Assembly (NCBI GenBank): GCA_029948255.1
Contig: JALIZF010001719.1
Coordinates: 124,001-188,000 of the forward strand
Direction of reading: 5' to 3'
Source of the DNA: Telmatactis stephensoni
Taxonomy: Eukaryota > Cnidaria > Anthozoa > Actiniaria > Isophelliidae
Length of the DNA: 64,000 nt
Positions 21,947-33,704 of the stretch are shown in pieces (the first letter of the stretch is position 1; the number at the start of each line of letters is the position of its first letter). A program made the position numbers and the translations under genes. A model generated the notes under the pieces. The model had not been told where the DNA came from and ran no database searches. It saw nothing but the letters and a program-made list of their open reading frames with translations.

Positions 21947-22085
21947 CTGCAACACAAATTACAAGTAAATATATATTGTTGGTTTCTGTCAAGAAAGGGA
22001 AGTGGAAAATCATTGTTTGTAATATCAAGTGAAAAATGGATAAAATCATAACAAACAGTCAAATCTAACCTAGTTAGAAAAACAG

Positions 22086-22106
22086 CTCAAGGGTGTTAAG
22101 GCTTGG
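22086..22106 (+). repeat. Left terminal inverted repeat of the SAP-gene element
   Basis: CTCAAGGGTGTTAAGGCTTG plus one G, matching 28859-28879 in reverse over 21 bases. Beyond it, TTTGACCCCCAGCGAAGTTT resembles the MITE's subterminal TTTGACCTTGGAAAGTTT. Confidence 0.85.
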
Positions 22107-23207
22107 TTAGAATCCTCGGCTTTGACCCCCAGCGAAGTTTTTGTCCCGCGTCCCGCGAGTCGAGTGCTGACGCGTGCAGATCAACATTTATTCAATATGG
22201 CGTCGATCGTGAGGAAAGGAAGACAAATTTTATAGTAGTTTTTATGATTTATTTCAATTCTGACTAAAAGAAAAGTCGCCAAAAAGTGAAAAAACATATC
22301 CTCTAAGATTCTAGAGCTTCCTGGACCTGAAAGATGTACATTTCCTTCGAATGTCTTCAGTTGAATATGTTAGCGTACGCTTGGTCAAAGCGTGTAAGAT
22401 TATCAGCTCTATATTATATGCAAAAGTCTGACCTTGTCGTCCAACAAGTTATATTCTTGGAACTATCATATAAAAGGACGTTTGAGGTAAGTTACATGAA
22501 ACACTATGTATATGGTTTTCTGTTTTTAGGTGTACAAATAAGTTAATGTAACAAATTAACACCTAAACCTAGCTTTAAAGATAACTTAACTGTAAGCATT
22601 TCAAGTGCTCATTTTACTGGTAGCTCATTAGCTTATGTACATGTTTACATGTTTCACAAATATTTTGTACACTTATTTACGCTGCATACATATTGGAATT
22701 GGTTTATGCAGGACATGAATCATAGTTCTAAAGTTGAAATAGGCTCTATAAATACAGGCTTTTTATGAAATCCAAAGCAGTGAACTTTCTGTGTATTTAC
22801 TCAATTTTTCTCAGGCAAAATCCAAGACTAGGTACTAGGCTCAATGACATCACCCCAAGAGTAGAACAGAGAAAATATCATTAACACTTAGTGTAGATGT
22901 TTTTGACAAATGAAAATGCTATATATTCAGAGGGTTGAATCTCAACAGAGCAACAAGAATTCCATCATCTGGCTTGGTGTGGAGTGATGTCATCCAATGC
23001 CATGTACCATATCCCCTGACAATCATGACCATGGGTCCAATTCAGCAATCAGAAATGGCCAAAAGTGCTAATTTAAACATTCGCCAAAATTCAGGTTTTA
23101 TCAAAATCAAATTAATTATTTTTGCCATGGTCAAAGAAAATTATTAAATATTTTTTGTATGTTTTCAGACAGTGATTACATGTAGGTAGCCTTTTATGAG
23201 TTAACAG

Positions 23208-26200
23208 CTATACTGCATAGTTATTAATTGGAAAATGCCACGTTTTTTCCAGTAGTTCTTCAGCAAGTTGTTTATTCTTTACTAATGATTGAAAATGACT
23301 GTCATTCTTGTAATCTTTGTCATTTGCAATTTTCTTGTGATTATTTAAAAACATGAAGTCCCATTCTCTCATTTCTTCTTTGAGTGACCTAAGCTTTTTC
23401 AACACTTGTGTCTGGATCTTAACCTCCATAACATTTAACTTTTTCCTATAAAATCGTGACTTGGGATCTTTGGTGAGCTCCCTCTTTAATCGATCCAGTT
23501 CAATAACATCACTGGTTTTGCCAATGAGTTTTTCTAGTGCTTTTGCTGTTCTAGAATGCAGTGTTCTGTCAGTATTTATGGACTCGTGCTCAGGTTCAGG
23601 ATGATTTAGGCTGGTCTTTTTCTTTTTGCAGGGTGATGACTCGCATTCATGAATTGTTTCCTTGTCAACTGGTGATTCCACGGCTTGAACTAGGTAAGCT
23701 ATTTATAGGGTTGTTATCAAATGAAATGTCAACATTGTCAGTGGATGGAATGTCACTAATATAATCACAATGTGTTATTGGCAAACACTCAATGTCAACA
23801 TTGTCAGTGGATGGGATGTCATTTATATCACATGTTATTGGTAAACACTCAATGGTGATTGTTTGGGGTGCACTTTCAGTTGTATGCCCTTCTTCCTCTT
23901 GTGGTATGACTGGGATTTCGTCAATTAGTTGTTGCTCTTCTGTGACAATGTCTTGTTCTTCCTCTCTGGTATAAATCAGATTTCCATCACTGTCTCGCAT
24001 TTTGTAGACAGGCAGCTGATCAGGCATGCTTTTGCATGTTTCCCAGGTTCTCTCAAGGTCATCATGGATTTTCTTTAAATTATGTGATCTGTAGTGGTAA
24101 AGGGGAGGTCCCTGTTGTCTGTACTCTTCTTCATCAGGACTGTCAAGAAATTCTATGCCACCATCATCCCTCCACTTCCACCAAACATCGTGTCCACATA
24201 CAAGGTAGTCGCTGATTTTTGTAATGTGGGATTGCCATAACCTTGATTTTTTTACCATGAACTCTTTAGATAGTACTGTGTTACAGGGCTTTGGAAGATT
24301 CTTGGCTAGACGAGAGATCTCTTTTTCTTGATCTTGGAAGCTTTGTTTTTCTAAAGCCATTTTGTCCTCTGCCTGGACATGTAGGAAGGCATTTGGCACA
24401 AGATCTTCGATGTGCTTGTTCCAGGTTTTTCTGGTTATATCCTCAATTCTTTCAAAGTATCTTTCAAACAACTCTGCAGAAATTGATCTCAAGCTGACAA
24501 GCCTGTAAATCAGAGGAGCATGGTCTATGGCACTGTGGTAATATATACCACACAGCTTCCTGAGAGTCATTGCTTTTGGTGGTGTTAATAGGCTCTGTAT
24601 TGCTTGCCCATGTCTGAAGGAAAGATTGTACAATCTGAGTACAGAACGGGGTGTTCTCTTGATGTCATTTTGGTAATAGATGCCTTGCATCTCACAGAAC
24701 ATTAAAAGAATGTTCCTTTCATCCTCTCCAAGGAGATTCTGGTTGGATAAAGCAATTGTAACCTTCAGCAGGGCTCTTCTGTAATCTGTTGCTCTGAGTT
24801 TATCTTTATTCAGGGTTATTGAAATTATTTCTTTGAAGGTTAGCAGAGCATCAGCATTGGTTAGGTGAAGAGGTAACTCAGAAAATATGTTTGCTATATG
24901 ATTTAAGCAAACATGGAGAGGTTCAAAGAAGAGAACTTCATAATCTTCAAGATTTAGATCTTTCAGTGTCAAGTCCTTTTCTCCAAAGAGTAAAGCAGGT
25001 AGTCTGCTGGTTCCTCTCAGTATATCTGTGAGTTCTTCCTGTAGGTCTTTCTTAATCTTGCCATCAAAATCTCTAACACCTCTTGCGGCAAGCTCCTTCT
25101 TGATGTCATTCACTTTGAGGTCCTTGAATGGGGCTACAGCATTATACTTTCCAAACCTGCCTGATAGAACTAGTTGTTGTTTTTCTTGAAGTGTTCTATA
25201 TGACTGGTAAGCCATGTAATCATATTCATTGGCACGCCTCATATCACCAGTGCAGCCACTACATGCAAAATGACCCCCTTTTTGGTCGCCATCTTCGAAC
25301 TCTACGGCCGGTGAATCACCATTCATGAACCTCATTTTCTCTGTGATTGTGACACTCTCTTGGGGATGTATTTGGACTTCTGTTCGATTCATTTGCCTTA
25401 GGCACTCTCTTCTGGTTGTCACAAAAGCAAGTTGGTCACTGTCTTTGGCACTGGCTGCTCCCATCATGTACAACGTTGGGGCTTCAACTATTGATTGTAC
25501 ATCTACATCCTTGCCATACCTTTCTCTGTATTCCACTGGGGTGATGTGTGTGGCAGGGTCATACAATTCTCGAACCAGGAATAACATGAAACCAGATCCA
25601 GCTAACGATGAATGGTCGTGCCAAATTATCCAGTGCCGTGTTCTCTCACATTTCTTCAAGTGTTCTCTTGCTTCTTCCTCAGACAGTTTAGCATTCCATT
25701 CTTGTAGCTCTTGAAGTGTTGTTTTAATCTGGCTGTATGTCATCTCCTCATATTCCTTATCATCCCTTACTCTCATAATGCCTTCACTTCTGTTCTTTTC
25801 TAAAGTTGATCTGCAAATTTCTTCAAGTGCATACTTCTTTGCTGAAATTGTCAAGCTCTTCTTTTCAATGTTACCATCAGGGGTAAGAACAACTTTTACA
25901 TGCTCGTTCTGCAGAACTGGAACTCCAAGGTTGTATTTTCCAGTGAGGATTTTTTCGTGTATGTCAAATTTTAGACTTTTGTTTGCCCGAGATACTGGGA
26001 CAGAAATGGCCCCACCAGGCAGTTTCTTTAGTGCTCGTCTAACTCTGTGGCTTTCTGTTGATCAGATAATTTTATTATAAAAATAATCAACAAAGGGCGA
26101 ACTCATATATTGAGGGGTAGGGATGCTAATCTGGAATTTTGAAAATGTACAAGGCACCCCCCCCCCAAAAACAAATGTACAAAGAGCATCCCCACCCTGT

Positions 26201-27829
26201 TCCCAAGAGAGCCCCCTGGGTTAAACACACAGAGCGTGACACATCGCCACCATCTTCAATGGCCATTTTTCATAAACTCATTACTAATTAATTTGTCTTT
26301 CAAACTTGATGGAGAGGAAAATCATGAAATTCCTTTTGGCAAAAGTTTTAACCCCCCTCCCCTCCCCCTCAGGTTAAACACACAAAGAGCAATACATCTC
26401 CACCATCTTAAATGGCCATTTTTTATTACTCAATAATTAATTTGTCTCTGGCAAATTTGATCATTTTTAATAATTTGTTGTTTACTGATGATTGTCATTT
26501 CTCAAGTCAGTCCTAATATTAAACTGGCTTACCTCTTTTCTCTCTATCAAACATTGGTATGTCAACTCCTTTAGCTCTTAAGTATTCTTTTAGAATTTGA
26601 CCTGCATTTTGGGGGGATGAATCACAATTAACACCTTTTATCTTATATTGCCTGGCTTTTTCTGACCAATTTATAGGCACTTCCACAGGCCAGCTCTTTA
26701 CATCCTCCTCCAACTTGTCTAAGTCTCCCTCTATGGAAGTGGGGCAATGTGATCTTTCTTTGGTAGAAGGCGGTGTTTTTTCAAGACGTTCCTTCGCTTC
26801 TTTGATAGTTTCAAATGACTGGTGTAAGCGTTGTTGAGTTCTTGCAGAAAAGGGTGTACGTTGGGCCAGATGAGAGTCTACATCATTGCTCTGCCACATT
26901 TGTTCAATTGAGGATTTAAAGTCTCTTTGTCTTTGCCTTTGTTTGTTTCGTCGCTCACTGGGACTTTCTCTGACTTGAAGATTGGCTTGAGGCAGTGTGA
27001 CCAGAACATCTGTAAATGACTTTCCCAGATTTTCTTTACAGACTTTGTCATACTCATTATATATTAGGTTTGCAATTTGTTTCAGCTCTCCTTTGTTTGG
27101 CTCTGCTTTTTTAGGCACGGTGTTCTGAGCTTTCTTAGTTAAATCAGAAAATGGGCTCTTCTTCTTATTGTTTTTTCTGTTTTTGTTTTCAGGGAATTTC
27201 TTTGTTATTGGTGTGTGGAATGTCTGGCAACACAAGCAGTTCTTCAAGCTATGAACATTTTTTCTAAATGTTGGGGTTTTATCCCATTTTGATGCAGAAA
27301 ATTGCTTAAGATATTGGTGTTTGTCATCTATCTTCCTCCAGTGTGATATTTTGTCATCTATGATCTTGTAGCTTTTCAGGAATGTTACTATCAGATCATG
27401 ATAAAAAACATTTTTAAACACTGTAAAGTATATAATTTAAGCAAGAACCCAGTGACCATGCACTACCGTGCATAATGCATGTGTCCTTGTGAAGCAGCTG
27501 AGGGTCTCTTTTATTAAAAAGCTATGAAAATTGTGTGGATAATTAAAAATGATCCAGGACTATAACTGTGATTTGCCCATTTCACATTTAATTTCCTCAG
27601 GGCAGTCTTAGCATCCCAATCAATTCTAATTAATTCCAACTTTTTGTTGTACTGTACCTTTGTCTAGTGATAACTTCTCGTATTCACTGAACTGTACACA
27701 GTACAGACGAAATCGTTCATCTAAAACACGTTTGTTGAATGCAGATGGTGATTCATTTGGCTGTTGTTTTATATTTTCTTTAGCAATCGATTTGGATTCC
27801 CATAAAAAACTCTCGAAAACCCACAACAT
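23208..27829 (-). CDS. Large SAP-like protein of the candidate transposon, probable transposase
   Basis: Three exons with GT..AG borders and matching phases: 27829-27658, 27420-26533 and 26054 down to a stop at 23665. Together they give about 1150 codons without a break. Exon 2 is basic and has a Cys pair (CLCC) and many Lys/Arg/Gln. Exon 3 holds HDHSSLAGSGFMLFLVRELY, EAPTLYMMGAASAKDSDQLA, GGHFACSGC, a SAP-like helix pair (DLKVNDIKKELAARGVRDFD) and YEVLFFEPLHVCLNHI. The tail has a tandem repeat with CLPIT and DIPSTDNVDI (about 23740-23860). A coiled segment at 23208-23681 is in another frame, either a shift or another exon. It resembles, from memory, a multicopy cnidarian family of unknown function; the transposase role is inferred from the flanking TIRs. 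Confidence 0.72.
26157..26455. repeat. C-run and 155-bp direct repeat in intron 2
   Basis: A run of about ten C lies at 26157-26166. GTTAAACACACA..CCACCATCTT..AATGGCCATTTTT occurs at about 26219 and again at about 26373, roughly 155 bases apart, both ending in ATTAATTTGTCT. Confidence 0.75.
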
Positions 27830-28858
27830 ATTCTTTCAGTCATTCTAGAAATTGAATTTACCGCCTAGAAAATGCGCATGTACTCTTGTGCAAAGCCGCA
27901 GCCTGATAAAGCACGTATTCCAAGACTGAACACGAAAAAATTCACGCATAAACTTCTTTATTGCACTGACTTTGCTAGACCCTTTTGTCGAATAGCAGAG
28001 AAAGAATGCCAACCAAAATGCTAAAAAAGGCATTTATTTATGATATAACCTCAGCAACAGGTACTTCAAACTTTATATTGACTAATAAGTTCGTTTAAAT
28101 ACTTCTTCGGGTGGTTCGAGCTCACTTTTTTGGCCTCTAGTTTTAGAATTCTTTGAGTTCTGCCATTTCTTGTTCGTCCACCATATTGCTTTCTCTAGCT
28201 AGCAGCTTCCTATTGGTCAGTATAACAATATAAATTTTAAAAATAGCATTTATTTGCATACATTATGATAAAACAGGAAGCCAAAAAGCATATTTTATGG
28301 AAATAGTCGTACCCAGTCTTCCACGTGAGTATTTTCTCTCGGAAAAAATGGCGTCCAAATTTTAAGGACAAGAAATAGGGACTTCGAACCTCAACGGGCC
28401 GTCGAAATTTGATTTGACATTCGAGTTTTTCTGCTACATGCATAGTTCTTATGTGTATCTTGGACTTACTGTCCGGAATGGATGAATATATAGCTTTTTA
28501 ACGCCGTAGATGCCCTAGATAGTTACAATGAAGTAAGGTACGATAGATAATTAAATATTATATCACTTTCTTTATTTAAAACTCAACCATTCCGGACAGA
28601 GTCTTTTAAACTAGTGCCTGTAGTTTCTGAAATGACTCATGGAATGTCTCAAACTTGTACGTTGACCAGCCCATTTTCATCCAACTGTCGACCAATAAGA
28701 AAAAGTATACAAGGTCACGTGATCACTTAAATACCGATATGACATAACAAAAACGTTTTTCCACCTAATTGCTGTGGCTCTGCTAAGTTTGAAAGTTTTC
28801 CGTTGAATATCGAAAAAGTTATGATTTTTTAAAGTTTTATTCAGAATTTAAGCAAATG
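27830..28858. other. 5' flank of the SAP-like gene inside the element
   Basis: It should hold the promoter. It includes an inverted repeat CTGTCCGGAATGG (about 28470) / CCATTCCGGACAG (about 28586). A short minus-strand open stretch at 28237-28443 might be an upstream exon but shows no motif. Confidence 0.45.
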
Positions 28859-28879
28859 CCAAGCCTTAACACCCTTGAG
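28859..28879 (-). repeat. Right terminal inverted repeat of the SAP-gene element
   Basis: CCAAGCCTTAACACCCTTGA plus G, the reverse complement of the left end. GTCACGTGAT lies subterminally at 28714-28723. Confidence 0.85.
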
Positions 28880-30830
28880 AAGAAGCAATGAAGCGTCTAT
28901 CTCTGATGTTTATAGCAATGGACAGACATCACTACAACAAAGCCACAATGTCATGGATAAGTGATACCAAATATCAGAGGAATACATTCCCAGAGTACTT
29001 CCAAGCAAAGCAAGATTTATGCTCAGTTATCACCGAAAAGAAAGTGGAGACCTTTCATTCCAAATTAAGCAAGCATAAGCAAGAATGATAAGGCCCCCAA
29101 AATCCAGGAAACAGCACGTCTGTTGGCAAGGTCAAATTTTGAAAACAATTTTTTTGAGCAAGATTACATAAATGGGTATCAACGTGGTATCAGTGATCAG
29201 AATTTGCTTCTCTTGACTGGTAATAATGATTTTTATACATGTGTTTACCCAGCCTAGTCCCCAGGCTATCCCGTCTCTCGTTTCAAAACGTGACGTCACA
29301 GAGTGACTCCAACGGGAACGCCTAGCGAATAATGCCAAAGCTCAAGATGGCGGACGCTAACTTAGTCAGATGCAAACGTGATGCTTTAGAAGATGCTGGT
29401 AGCGTCGCAGTTTAATGCTCCCGGATCTCACAAGACACCCTATATGTGAAATTAACTGAATTGAGCTGAATTCAAAACTCTAACGGTTGTGTGTTCGCAT
29501 CGATCGAAGCAATACGATAAGTTGTGTTCGGTCTATTCGATTCTCCACTTCGAAGGTAAAATCTCTTAGTAATTAATGGCTATCTATACCGCTAAAATTT
29601 CTGGTGAATTGAAATTGCTTTATTTACACAGACTACTGTCACTAGTTGAGTTAAATCCACATATATTTATGCACTTGAAATAAAACAAATCTCCGTCAGA
29701 TTCTCTGTAATAAATGTAATGTATCTGATATTTATCAAGTTCCCTTTGGCCGCAACAGGGTTTGATTCAAATTTTATTGTAAACAAACTTCACTCAGTTA
29801 GTTTTATAATCACTGCTAAAACTGTGATTGTTTGAAAATGTAATAGATTTGAATAAAATGTACTTGTGCGTAGTCTTGACTCAGAAATCCCCTTTACAGT
29901 CTATAATCTTCCTCTATGCTTTCTTAAAAACATATAAACTCGTAAAAATCCTATTTTTGGTCTATATTGGTGAATGTCGATACTCATTTCACCGAAATTG
30001 TTGGAAAAACGTTAAAAATTCAAGTTGTTAAGTCAGCTAAAGGTCAGGGACACTGCTGGTCAAATCAGGGACACTTTTGGTCAAATCAGGGACACTTTTG
30101 GCATTATTTGCTAGGCGTTCTCTCGCGCTTACGCGCTCGCCCCAGGTCTCGCTCGCGCTTCACGCTCGCAGAGGAACGCCTGGGTACTAGGCTGGTGTTT
30201 ACCAATACCAATCTTATAATTAATTTTATACATTTTATTTCAGGTTTGACAGCTGAATGTATTCTTGAGATGTTTGAACGAATTGCCACAAATCTTGGCC
30301 AGTCAGCAAATTTGCCAAGACCTTTAAACCGTAAAGGAAAACCATATGGTAAATCCAGTTTCTATCTAGCATGTTTTGATAAGCCATTCAATAGAAAGAG
30401 CCTTCCTCTTGGTTACAGATGGCCATCATTTGAACCAAACCCCACCTTGACTGTGATTCTGATGAGTGCCAATCACCATCCAAATCAGACATCAAGCGAC
30501 TTACATGTGGTCATACATTTCACTATATCTGTTTGGGCAACAATGGCTGTACGATTTGTCTACCAAACTTAATAAATGATATCACACAGCTCTCTCAGTC
30601 TTGGAACGAGCGGTTAATGGACCACGATGAAGGTGATGACAATGGTAGTGATGATGATGATGATGACAATAATGATCCTGATGATGACGACAGCACCTCA
30701 CTTCAGCCTGTAGAAGGTTCAAAAGATTTTAAATATTTCAATTCTGAGCTTTTCAAAGCATATGTTGTAAATAAATCTTCAAAAATGAAAGACATTGTTA
30801 AAAAATCAAAACAACTTCACGAGGATTAGA
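28880..30830 (+). pseudogene. 5'-truncated gene with RING-like C-terminus and acidic tail
   Basis: Coding resumes at once after the transposon end, with FIAMDRHHYNKATMSW and SVITEKKVETFHSKL, then after a frame change near 29082 KIQETARLLARSNFENNF up to a donor after LLLLTG near 29217. The next exon starts about 30244 (LTAECILEMFERIATNLG). After another shift near 30450 comes CDSDECQ, RLTCGHTFHYICL and GCTICLPNL, a RING-like C-C..C-H..H-C..C-C zinc site, then a run of Asp (about 30650-30690). RING domains usually act in ubiquitin transfer; here that is only inferred. The N-terminus is missing. Confidence 0.6.
29249..30195. mobile_element. hAT-like non-autonomous element in an intron
   Basis: The ends CCAGCCTAGT and ACTAGGCTGG are inverted repeats, and TGTTTAC is duplicated directly outside (29242-29248 and 30196-30202; possibly 8 bp). 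A second inverted pair lies inside: AACGCCTAGCGAATAATGCC / GGCATTATTTGCTAGGCGTT. A CpG-rich stretch of GCGCTCGC-type repeats lies near the right end (30118-30180), unlike the AT-rich surroundings. Interior TCAGGGACAC units repeat at about 30045-30095. Confidence 0.85.
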
Positions 30831-31853
30831 GTACAAACACTGATAAAGTGTGCAAAATAAATAACACTATTAAATAGTATTGCTCTGTTCCATTGTTGAA
30901 AGTTATAGCATTTGCAAGTTTTTAGTGTTTGCACTCTAAGATATCTTCTGTATTTTAGTGAATAAAAAATAGTTTTTGTCTAGTTTTCAAAGAGTGTCGC
31001 TACACAATATAAGCTTATGAAATAATGGCCGAGTGCTGAAAACAAGCGCCCGATTTTCCGTGAATGATGTTATTATAAGCAGCTTGTAAATAGTTTCGTA
31101 AATTGTACATATGTAAGATAAAAAATAATAGCCTATGCCATTTATACTGTAAATAATTGATACTAATTTGTTTTAAATCATGTATTAATAATTACCTGTA
31201 AAAAGACAGTAATAAACAAATATTAACTTATGAACTCACCTCACGAAGTTAGCTATCCCAATATTCCACGAAAATATGCAATCATCTAGCAATCTTTGAA
31301 GCAACCGAAACTATTTAAGTTCCTTTTCGTTTAAATAAGAATATTTTTTTCCAATGCATCTTATTTTCTTGCATATAAATCGTTTTCAACATCAAAATTC
31401 CTGATGGAATTCTGTCAACAAAAATGGCCGACTCGGCGAGAATGAAGAAGCCGCTGATCAAAAGGAATGACGTCATCAAAACGTATTTCCGAGGTGCCCA
31501 GCTACAGTGACCTCAATCCTGCTTCAATGTCTTTCCATTTTGTGTAGCTTTACCTAGGTTAAAGAGTGCACTATCAGCTTTCCAGAAAATTATCTTGTGC
31601 TAATGGAACTACCGACACTAAATATGGTGCTTTAACGTCTTTACTTTATGTTAACATGGGTACAGCGATCTGCACTGATTGCAAGTAAGTTGAAACAAAT
31701 GAGGGGATCATGATGAAAGAATCAATTGTCATATGAACAACTTTTTTACTTGACGCCGCATGTCACCACTAAGCTCCTATATAGTAGAGGAAGACATGCT
31801 TTACTATTATTTCATAAGTTACATATATTTTTTATATACAGATACACGTTTCA
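30831..31853. other. No gene supported
   Basis: AT-rich, with a short GC-richer patch at 31420-31500 starting with an ATG (MADSARMKKPLIK) that soon stops. It may be the degraded first exon of the downstream gene. Confidence 0.4.
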
Positions 31854-33704
31854 ATGGGCTCGACTGTTGCAGATCACTGCCGAGCATATGCACTAAGTGA
31901 CCCTGATGACCAAGACTACATGGTGATTTGCGAACACGAGCATAATGACAAATGCGATAGATGCTCCCATCTGACATCTGTTTTAGCAGAAATTGATAAG
32001 GTGTTACACGAAGCTGACTGCGTAGTTGATACGAAAGAAGAGCTGTTATTTGTTGTCTCTCAGGCAACACAAAACATCAAAGCCTGGAAATCTCACATGC
32101 TTCGTTCAACAAATCAAGATCAATGTAGACTGGATATCCTAGAGCATTTAGATGAAACCTCCGTTCTCCTCGTTTTAGATTGGGTTATGAAATATCTGCC
32201 AAGAAAATATCGAGAAAGTCAGTCTGATTGGTTTGCCAAGCGAGGGATATCTTGGCACATTACAGTTGCAACGAGAAGAGTGGCAAGCGGAAAGATGGAG
32301 TCATTGACGTTTGTTCACGTATTTCAAGCTTGTAACCAAGATGGCATGGTTGCTCTTGCCATTTTAGATGACGTCTTCAGTCAGTTAAAGTCAGTGATGC
32401 CAGACATAGAATCAGTGTTCTTTAGACAAGATAACGCTGCTATCACTGCGCATTAACCATGGTGACAACCGAGAAAGTGGCCACTTTAAATGGTCTTCAT
32501 CTTTCAAGAATGGACTTTTCCGATCCTCAAGGAGGAAAGGGGTCCTGTGATCGGAAAGCGGCCACAATAAAGAGACACATGTCAATTCACTTGAATTCCG
32601 GCCACGATATCCAAACAGCAGCTCAAATGCAGGAAGCCATTGAATCGTTTCAAGGAGTTCCTGGTGTAAAAGTCGACATCTGTGGTCCTCCTTCAGCAAA
32701 TGTTACAAGGCCAATCAAATGGAAAGGAGTGAGCTTTCTTAATAATATCCAGTACAGTGAAAACGGCTTGAAAGTCTGGAGAGCCTACAACATTGGCCCA
32801 GGTAAAGATGTATCTTTGTCAAGATTTCCAGAGCAAGAACAGATGCCACACCTGGCATCTAGTTGCTACAGTGATAGTTCATTGAATGTAACGTTCGAAT
32901 CTATCAAGGCAAGAAGAGTGAAGAGCCTTCCTTCCCACTCACCTGATGAAGATATCGATACCATGGATTCCGAAGATGACTCAAGGGACGAATCATACGA
33001 ATCTGCTTCCCAAAATCTGTTTATCTGAATCTGTTTATCTGAAGGATGCGTGAAATCCTATCAGAGAAACTCCTCCCTCCACAAGCATCTTGAATACGGC
33101 AAGCACAAGCACATTCTGGAGTACAAAACACTTTACGATAAAGCCATTCTTGGGTATGCATCAAGACTGGAGCATGGTGCAGGAGCACCACCTGAATTGC
33201 AAACTGAAATCTGAACCATCTGAACCATCACTTCCCATGGGATGGGCTCTGAAGCTCCCTCGTTCATGCGGAAGTTGCTCTTCATCTAAACAGAAAGATT
33301 ACCTTACTGCAAAATTCATGATAGGAGAGCAATCGGGCCAAAAAGTAGATCACGAAAAAGTATCAAAGACCATGAGAACAGCAAAGGGTAGCAATGGTGA
33401 TCATATGTTTGAAAGTGCAGACTTTTTGACAACTCAACAAGTGTCGAGCTATTTTTCACGCCTTGCCTCTAAAAGATGTCTTGAAAGCGAAAATGACGGT
33501 GAAGAAAGTGAGGAAGATGATGCAGAAAGAGAACAACAACAACTTCAAGGACTCAGAGAGAAGGTCATGGCCGATGTTTCCATCCAACATGCCCATCCAA
33601 TCGTATACGATGCACATAACATTTGTGAGATGGCTAAAAATGAAAAACTTATGTCTTTCTCAATAAAGATGCTACAGACCATCTGTCTGTCCGAAATGTC
33701 TTGA
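31854..33704 (+). pseudogene. TE-like gene with C2H2 finger, multiply broken
   Basis: Segment 1 (31854-32437) includes VMKYLPRKYRESQSDWFAKR and ends at FFRQDNA, where a one-base shift leads into segment 2 (CYHCALTMVTT..). Segment 2 has MDFSDPQGGKGSCDRKAA and then an acidic stretch, and stops at 33026. Segment 3 has a C2H2-like GCVKSYQRNSSLHKHLEYGKH, and after a shift near 33175 segment 4 has PMGWALKLPR and LTTQQVSSYFSRLASKR, possibly a helix-turn-helix. QDNA and DFSDPQGGKG could be the acidic residues of a DDE-type nuclease; this is inference. I recall this as a multicopy cnidarian family without an assigned function. Confidence 0.6.

Follow-up and report, generated by a model that had tools for sequence, protein, structure and literature searches.

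RAG1 cuts antibody genes and is held to descend from transposases of the RAG1-type fold. The RAG-like (RAGL) and Transib transposons are described in PMC7204232 with 5-bp target duplications and 5'-CAC ends. In PMC12730594, the RAG1/Transib/CACTA (CMCT) clade is characterised by a DDE triad whose second D and E enclose C(2)C and H(3-4)H motifs, by 2-5-bp target duplications, and by ends that are 5'-CA..TG-3' "in most cases", a tendency and not a rule. The same paper gives the fungal PlavakaA and ESTA elements 2-bp duplications, with ends TGT..ACA in PlavakaA and duplication of TA in ESTA, and cites Lanisha (Repbase Reports 2020), which is listed as an EnSpm-like CMCT lineage. The CMITE MITEs, small inverted-repeat elements of coral genomes that resemble the present family in this respect, are linked to piggyBac-like elements in PMC2872659.

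The window (the whole stretch of 64,000 nucleotides from contig JALIZF010001719.1 of Telmatactis stephensoni) contains one copy of a real, recently active transposon family. This is very probably an autonomous cut-and-paste DNA transposon family with a RAG1/Transib-type DDE transposase, placed in or beside the CMCT clade and in none of the named lineages tested. The features of the window copy are shown in Table 1. The 21-bp inverted termini reported by the initial annotation were exact (100% complementary), ranked first of 53 inverted-repeat pairs in the 21-30 kb scanned, and were the sole perfect pair among the best 25 of the 53. The subterminal palindrome TCACGTGA was present near the gene-upstream end in 3/3 gene-bearing copies tested (window, C750, and C5) and three times in one 661-bp copy, lay about 150-165 bp from ends in the copies tested, and could be a candidate site for the transposase or a host factor. 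Locus L055 contained three GTCACGTGACC-type sites. Beyond the right end of the element, two overlapping long ORFs (212 and 197 aa) were seen at 31818-33028.

Table 1. Features of the window copy; residue counts are given as x / sequences covering each position, and residues are numbered on the exon-3 model.
Feature	Position	Strand	Remark
Left flanking dinucleotide AG	22084..22085	.	Differs from right AA
Terminal inverted repeat, gene-downstream end, CTCAAGGGTGTTAAGGCTTGG	22086..22106	+	Inter-copy homology stops here
ORF homologous to C-terminal coiled region of relatives	23208..23702	-	Frame differs from exon 3
Exon 3, coding for the catalytic core; RNase H fold of RAG1 type predicted	23665..26054	-	
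E530 and E533 (AELFER), candidate catalytic Glu	24463..24474	-	Both E in 34/34
H509-x4-H514, proposed zinc ligands	24520..24537	-	Both H in 34/34
SAP-like domain, residues about 311-347	25021..25131	-	
Cys pair C267/C270 (CxxC), proposed zinc ligands	25252..25263	-	Both C in 32/32
Proposed catalytic Asp 2, D249, motif GDxPA	25315..25317	-	D in 32/32
Proposed catalytic Asp 1, D149, motif WHDHS	25615..25617	-	D in 31/31
Exon 2, 888 nt, N-terminal region	26533..27420	-	Counterparts in 9.5-kb subfamily and distant relatives
Exon 1, predicted, 172 nt	27658..27829	-	Splice phases
Subterminal palindrome TCACGTGA	28715..28722	.	About 160 bp from gene-upstream end
Terminal inverted repeat, gene-upstream end	28859..28879	-	Exact complement
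Right flanking dinucleotide AA	28880..28881	.	Flank has four identical copies elsewhere, other sequence before them

Analysis of the flanks showed no intact target duplication at the window copy. The right flank (28880-29059) had four 100% copies elsewhere, each starting at the element edge, and all four were preceded by one sequence ending in ATTC that is unlike the left flank of the window. For the left flank (22066-22085) one other copy was found (C278, 98%), and it runs on into sequence other than the right flank. Judged from these sequences, the two flanks were probably not neighbours before insertion, and the window copy would be a recombinant between two copies, a rearrangement, or an assembly chimera. 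Flanks from different loci explain the missing duplication; they also remove an argument made earlier, in which the truncated genes on either side of the element were taken as a sign of insertion.

A search of the genome with the exon-3 protein gave at least 61 matches, 37 of them without an internal stop; the 61 is a lower bound, and some matches are two pieces of one copy. The left 201 bp of the element were found at 4 places and the right 201 bp at 5, with the window counted in both. Homology among the window copy, C120, C209, and C33 breaks off two bases or less from the termini; as their flanks are the same, C120 and C209 were counted as one insertion. In C33 one terminus lacks its first 19 bases and the other is full, C677 has one end only, C1097 had no recognised termini within the stretch fetched, and the C209 copy has grown to 35 kb and contains a PF02992 piece. 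A copy of 6769 bp on C750 has the termini CTCAAGCATGTTAAGGCATG and a TA duplication. Those on C5, C361, and C435 (9551, 9629, and 9872 bp) obtained identical scores and are 99.6-100% identical in DNA across long aligned stretches; they sit at different sites between related termini (CTCGAGTGTATTAAGGCCTGG(TT) in all three), with duplications of GA, TA, and TT, respectively. C5 has ORFs that match exons 2 and 3 and the C-terminal piece. In the gene copies outside the window for which both ends were read (C120, C209, C5, C361, C435, and C750), the termini coincided, and in these copies the refuting condition named in the initial annotation, a gene lacking such termini or termini confined to one place, did not arise.

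The termini are not confined to the window, with over two thousand matches in the genome. The terminal 20-mer of the window was found at 2021 places with up to 3 mismatches, compared with 21 for a reversed control, and the terminus consensus CTCRAGNNNNTTAAGGCNTGG was found exactly at 2369 places, compared with 0 for its reversed control; this abundance is not due to chance. Abundant copies of roughly 660-700 bp carry the same termini and are too short to encode the protein. A set of 19 single short copies showed 92.9-99.8% pairwise identity (median 95.8%, 171 pairs). In one 661-bp-type copy (L070, C135:42150-43690) a second element with termini CTCAAGCACATTAAGGCC..GGCCTTAACATGCTTGAG was nested. 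Prokaryote genomes gave 25 pattern matches and 0 confirmed relatives. The profile search with a 36-member alignment gave 47 proteins, compared with 35 in the first search, and none was labelled as another transposase family.

An exact 2-bp duplication of varying sequence flanked 20/20 fetched copies whose two ends are exact (19 are 651-664 bp long, and one of 1351 bp has a nested second element), and 9/9 fetched copies of 682-5388 bp from other terminus variants; all 29 copies were chosen from match lists for paired intact ends. Of the gene-bearing copies, seven were read at both ends; the 2-bp duplication was present in six of them and absent from the window copy. Three of the 20 insertions lie in tandem repeats, and after removal of 2 bp the neighbouring unit matched at 27, 27, and 28 of 30 positions. 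The other high value was 26, on removal of 7, in a 5-bp-repeat locus (L057), while the remaining 17 loci reached at most 22 of 30 in the removal test. The C5 insertion also lies in a repeat, for which 39 rows were obtained besides the two of C5 itself, 38 of them across the junction, and GA was single in 6/6 empty sites fetched. Removal of 2 bp restores the pre-insertion sequence, and the duplication is confirmed by the empty sites, so that the search for such sites proposed in the initial annotation gave a 2-bp target duplication at the tandem-repeat loci and in the C5 repeat. The duplications show a 2-bp stagger and freedom of target. A TTAA-type duplication inside the termini was dropped, the outer bases being constant at the sites read. 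Tc1/mariner elements duplicate TA and were ruled against, since many dinucleotides are duplicated here.

The three exons, joined via GT..AG introns, gave 1149 codons plus a stop, in agreement with the single gene of about 1150 codons and working splice sites described at first; the exon-3 model begins at 26061, two residues inside the intron. The exon 2 product showed, by eye, a Cys motif and a helix-turn-helix-like stretch. Relatives have an extra C-terminal stretch beyond the exon-3 equivalent, and because its counterpart in the window is an ORF in another frame, the protein of the window copy is probably truncated. D149, D249, and E530 or E533 would form the catalytic set and the Cys and His residues would bind zinc; which Glu is catalytic we infer from spacing. 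A CxC spacing replaced CxxC in P0032-P0035, which form one distant branch. The SAP-like helix pair noted at the outset was supported by SAP matches in 23/36 alignment members at E <= 0.1, but the window protein itself (E 0.1) stayed under the Pfam cut-off. In single-sequence searches with the window gene, no Pfam or PDB entry reached the cut-off. One Exaiptasia gene model (P0027, 1228 aa) joins a DUF6589 (PF20231) region to a family member, either as a real fusion or through a model error.

Two AlphaFold models (the window protein and a 29%-identical relative) had the RAG1 core as best fold match and Transib next, with RAG1, HzTransib, and BbRAGL at the top. The residue order D, D, Cys pair, H-x4-H, E is RAG1-like. 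The RNase H fold that the initial annotation proposed to look for in exon 3 is predicted, and it is of RAG1 type. The statement that no motif tied the protein to a named superfamily was therefore too strong, as the predicted fold and residue pattern point to the RAG1/Transib/CMCT group. A profile search of PDB sequences gave SAP domains and weak unrelated chains, and RAG1 and Transib were not found among its matches. The viral structure library gave no match at E <= 0.001, and Foldseek with the second model gave a weak match to Hermes (hAT; E 0.005). The Pfam RAG1 profile (PF12940) matched nowhere, controls included, and is therefore uninformative on RAG1L in this genome.

The family was placed in or beside the CMCT clade, with RAG1, Transib, and CACTA as the lineages covered by sequence comparison. 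It resembles the clade in its DDE, C(2)C, and H(3-4)H residues (roles proposed; CxC in one distant branch) and in the 2-bp duplication of 29/29 sampled short or medium copies, and differs in its ends, which are CT..AG and not CA..TG where read. RAG1 core, RAGL, and Transib share with it the predicted RNase H core, into which a large helical segment is inserted, and the D..D..C-C..H-x4-H..E order; the SAP-like domain here and the lack of detectable sequence similarity set it apart from RAG1 and Transib. PlavakaA and ESTA share the 2-bp duplication and the motif set, as PMC12730594 describes them, but the ends here are CTC..GAG and many dinucleotides are duplicated. We read the family as an unnamed cut-and-paste lineage of the CMCT clade, set apart from PlavakaA by its termini and from ESTA by its duplications. 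That it is a separate superfamily, an animal RAG1-fold lineage that branches outside Transib/RAG, EnSpm, Mirage, and Chapaev and has a 2-bp stagger and a terminus code of its own (CTCRAGNNNNTTAAGGC), is a tentative proposal to which we give slightly less than even weight. The word "undescribed" of the initial annotation holds for the literature searched, in which no paper was recognised by its title or the opening of its abstract as a description of the family; Repbase lay outside the search and may hold an entry.

Repeated copies whose termini coincide, 2-bp duplications, and empty sites bear out the earlier proposal of a DNA transposon with one large gene; conserved residues and the predicted fold suggest that the encoded protein does the cutting. 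The enzyme encoded by the single gene would be a DDE transposase whose RNase H core is of RAG1/Transib type, carrying a set of zinc ligands and, as an insertion, a SAP-like domain. It would recognise the 20-23-bp terminal inverted repeats of the consensus pattern, and may also bind the subterminal palindrome. It would move the element by excision rather than copying, presumably through hairpin or other intermediates, and join its 3' ends to the target at positions on the two strands that lie two bases from each other; repair of the gaps would then duplicate 2 bp, of nearly any sequence. For the copies of about 660-700 bp, which are too short for the protein, movement must occur in trans.

The strongest alternative, although we consider it unlikely, is that the family is a divergent EnSpm/CACTA (CMC) transposon and falls within that superfamily. 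In EnSpm/CACTA, Mirage, and Chapaev the stretch from the second D to the E holds C(2)C and H(3-4)H, and duplications are short (2-5 bp among CMCT members in PMC12730594); PMC4455052 states that Repbase merged Chapaev and Mirage with EnSpm on the basis of weak similarity. By eye, the motif order D-x-PA..GHxxCxxC..[DE]PxH..FER of the family is also seen in two CACTA proteins from this genome, and since the [DE]PxH and FER motifs are included, distant CACTA kinship is possible. The only hhalign match to these two proteins was the second-Asp/CxxC motif, and it was not significant (probability 0.5 on a per cent scale, E 0.13). Two of the 36 alignment members touch the tnp2 profile PF02992 (best E 0.068), with no match over cut-off, whereas 0/61 family places overlap the PF02992 places listed for the genome, which number at least 145 at E <= 0.001 (139 over cut-off). 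The termini, moreover, are CTC..GAG and not CAC..GTG. A Transib or RAGL transposon is very unlikely: its case is the predicted fold, against which stand the 2-bp and not 5-bp duplications, CTC and not CAC ends, the listed ORFs of the 6.8-kb and 9.5-kb copies, which include no second long gene, and the PDB profile search. Least probable of all, by a little, is a passenger or host gene family whose termini are moved by an unrelated transposase. In its favour, the termini far outnumber the gene copies found, and CACTA genes are abundant in the same genome; against it, matching termini enclose the gene in three subfamilies in which termini and protein differ together, and a transposase fold with invariant acidic residues is predicted.

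The autonomous RAG1/Transib-type family would be a second abundant animal lineage with a predicted RAG1 fold, whose ends differ and whose stagger is 2 bp and not 5 bp, and offers a comparison from outside for the determinants of stagger and end recognition in RAG1. If the separate superfamily is true, the RAG1-fold scaffold can set its pair of cuts at a distance of either 2 or 5 bases. Activity is directly testable, given closely similar copies that have long open frames and more than two thousand termini, and unclassified repeats of related genomes could be named via the family.

Two further observations concern the genome. A number of its CACTA-type tnp2 (PF02992) genes have open frames of 860-930 codons. 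On C194 (130734-169234), ten exact same-strand terminus 20-mers lie within 39 kb, a possible tandem array of element ends.
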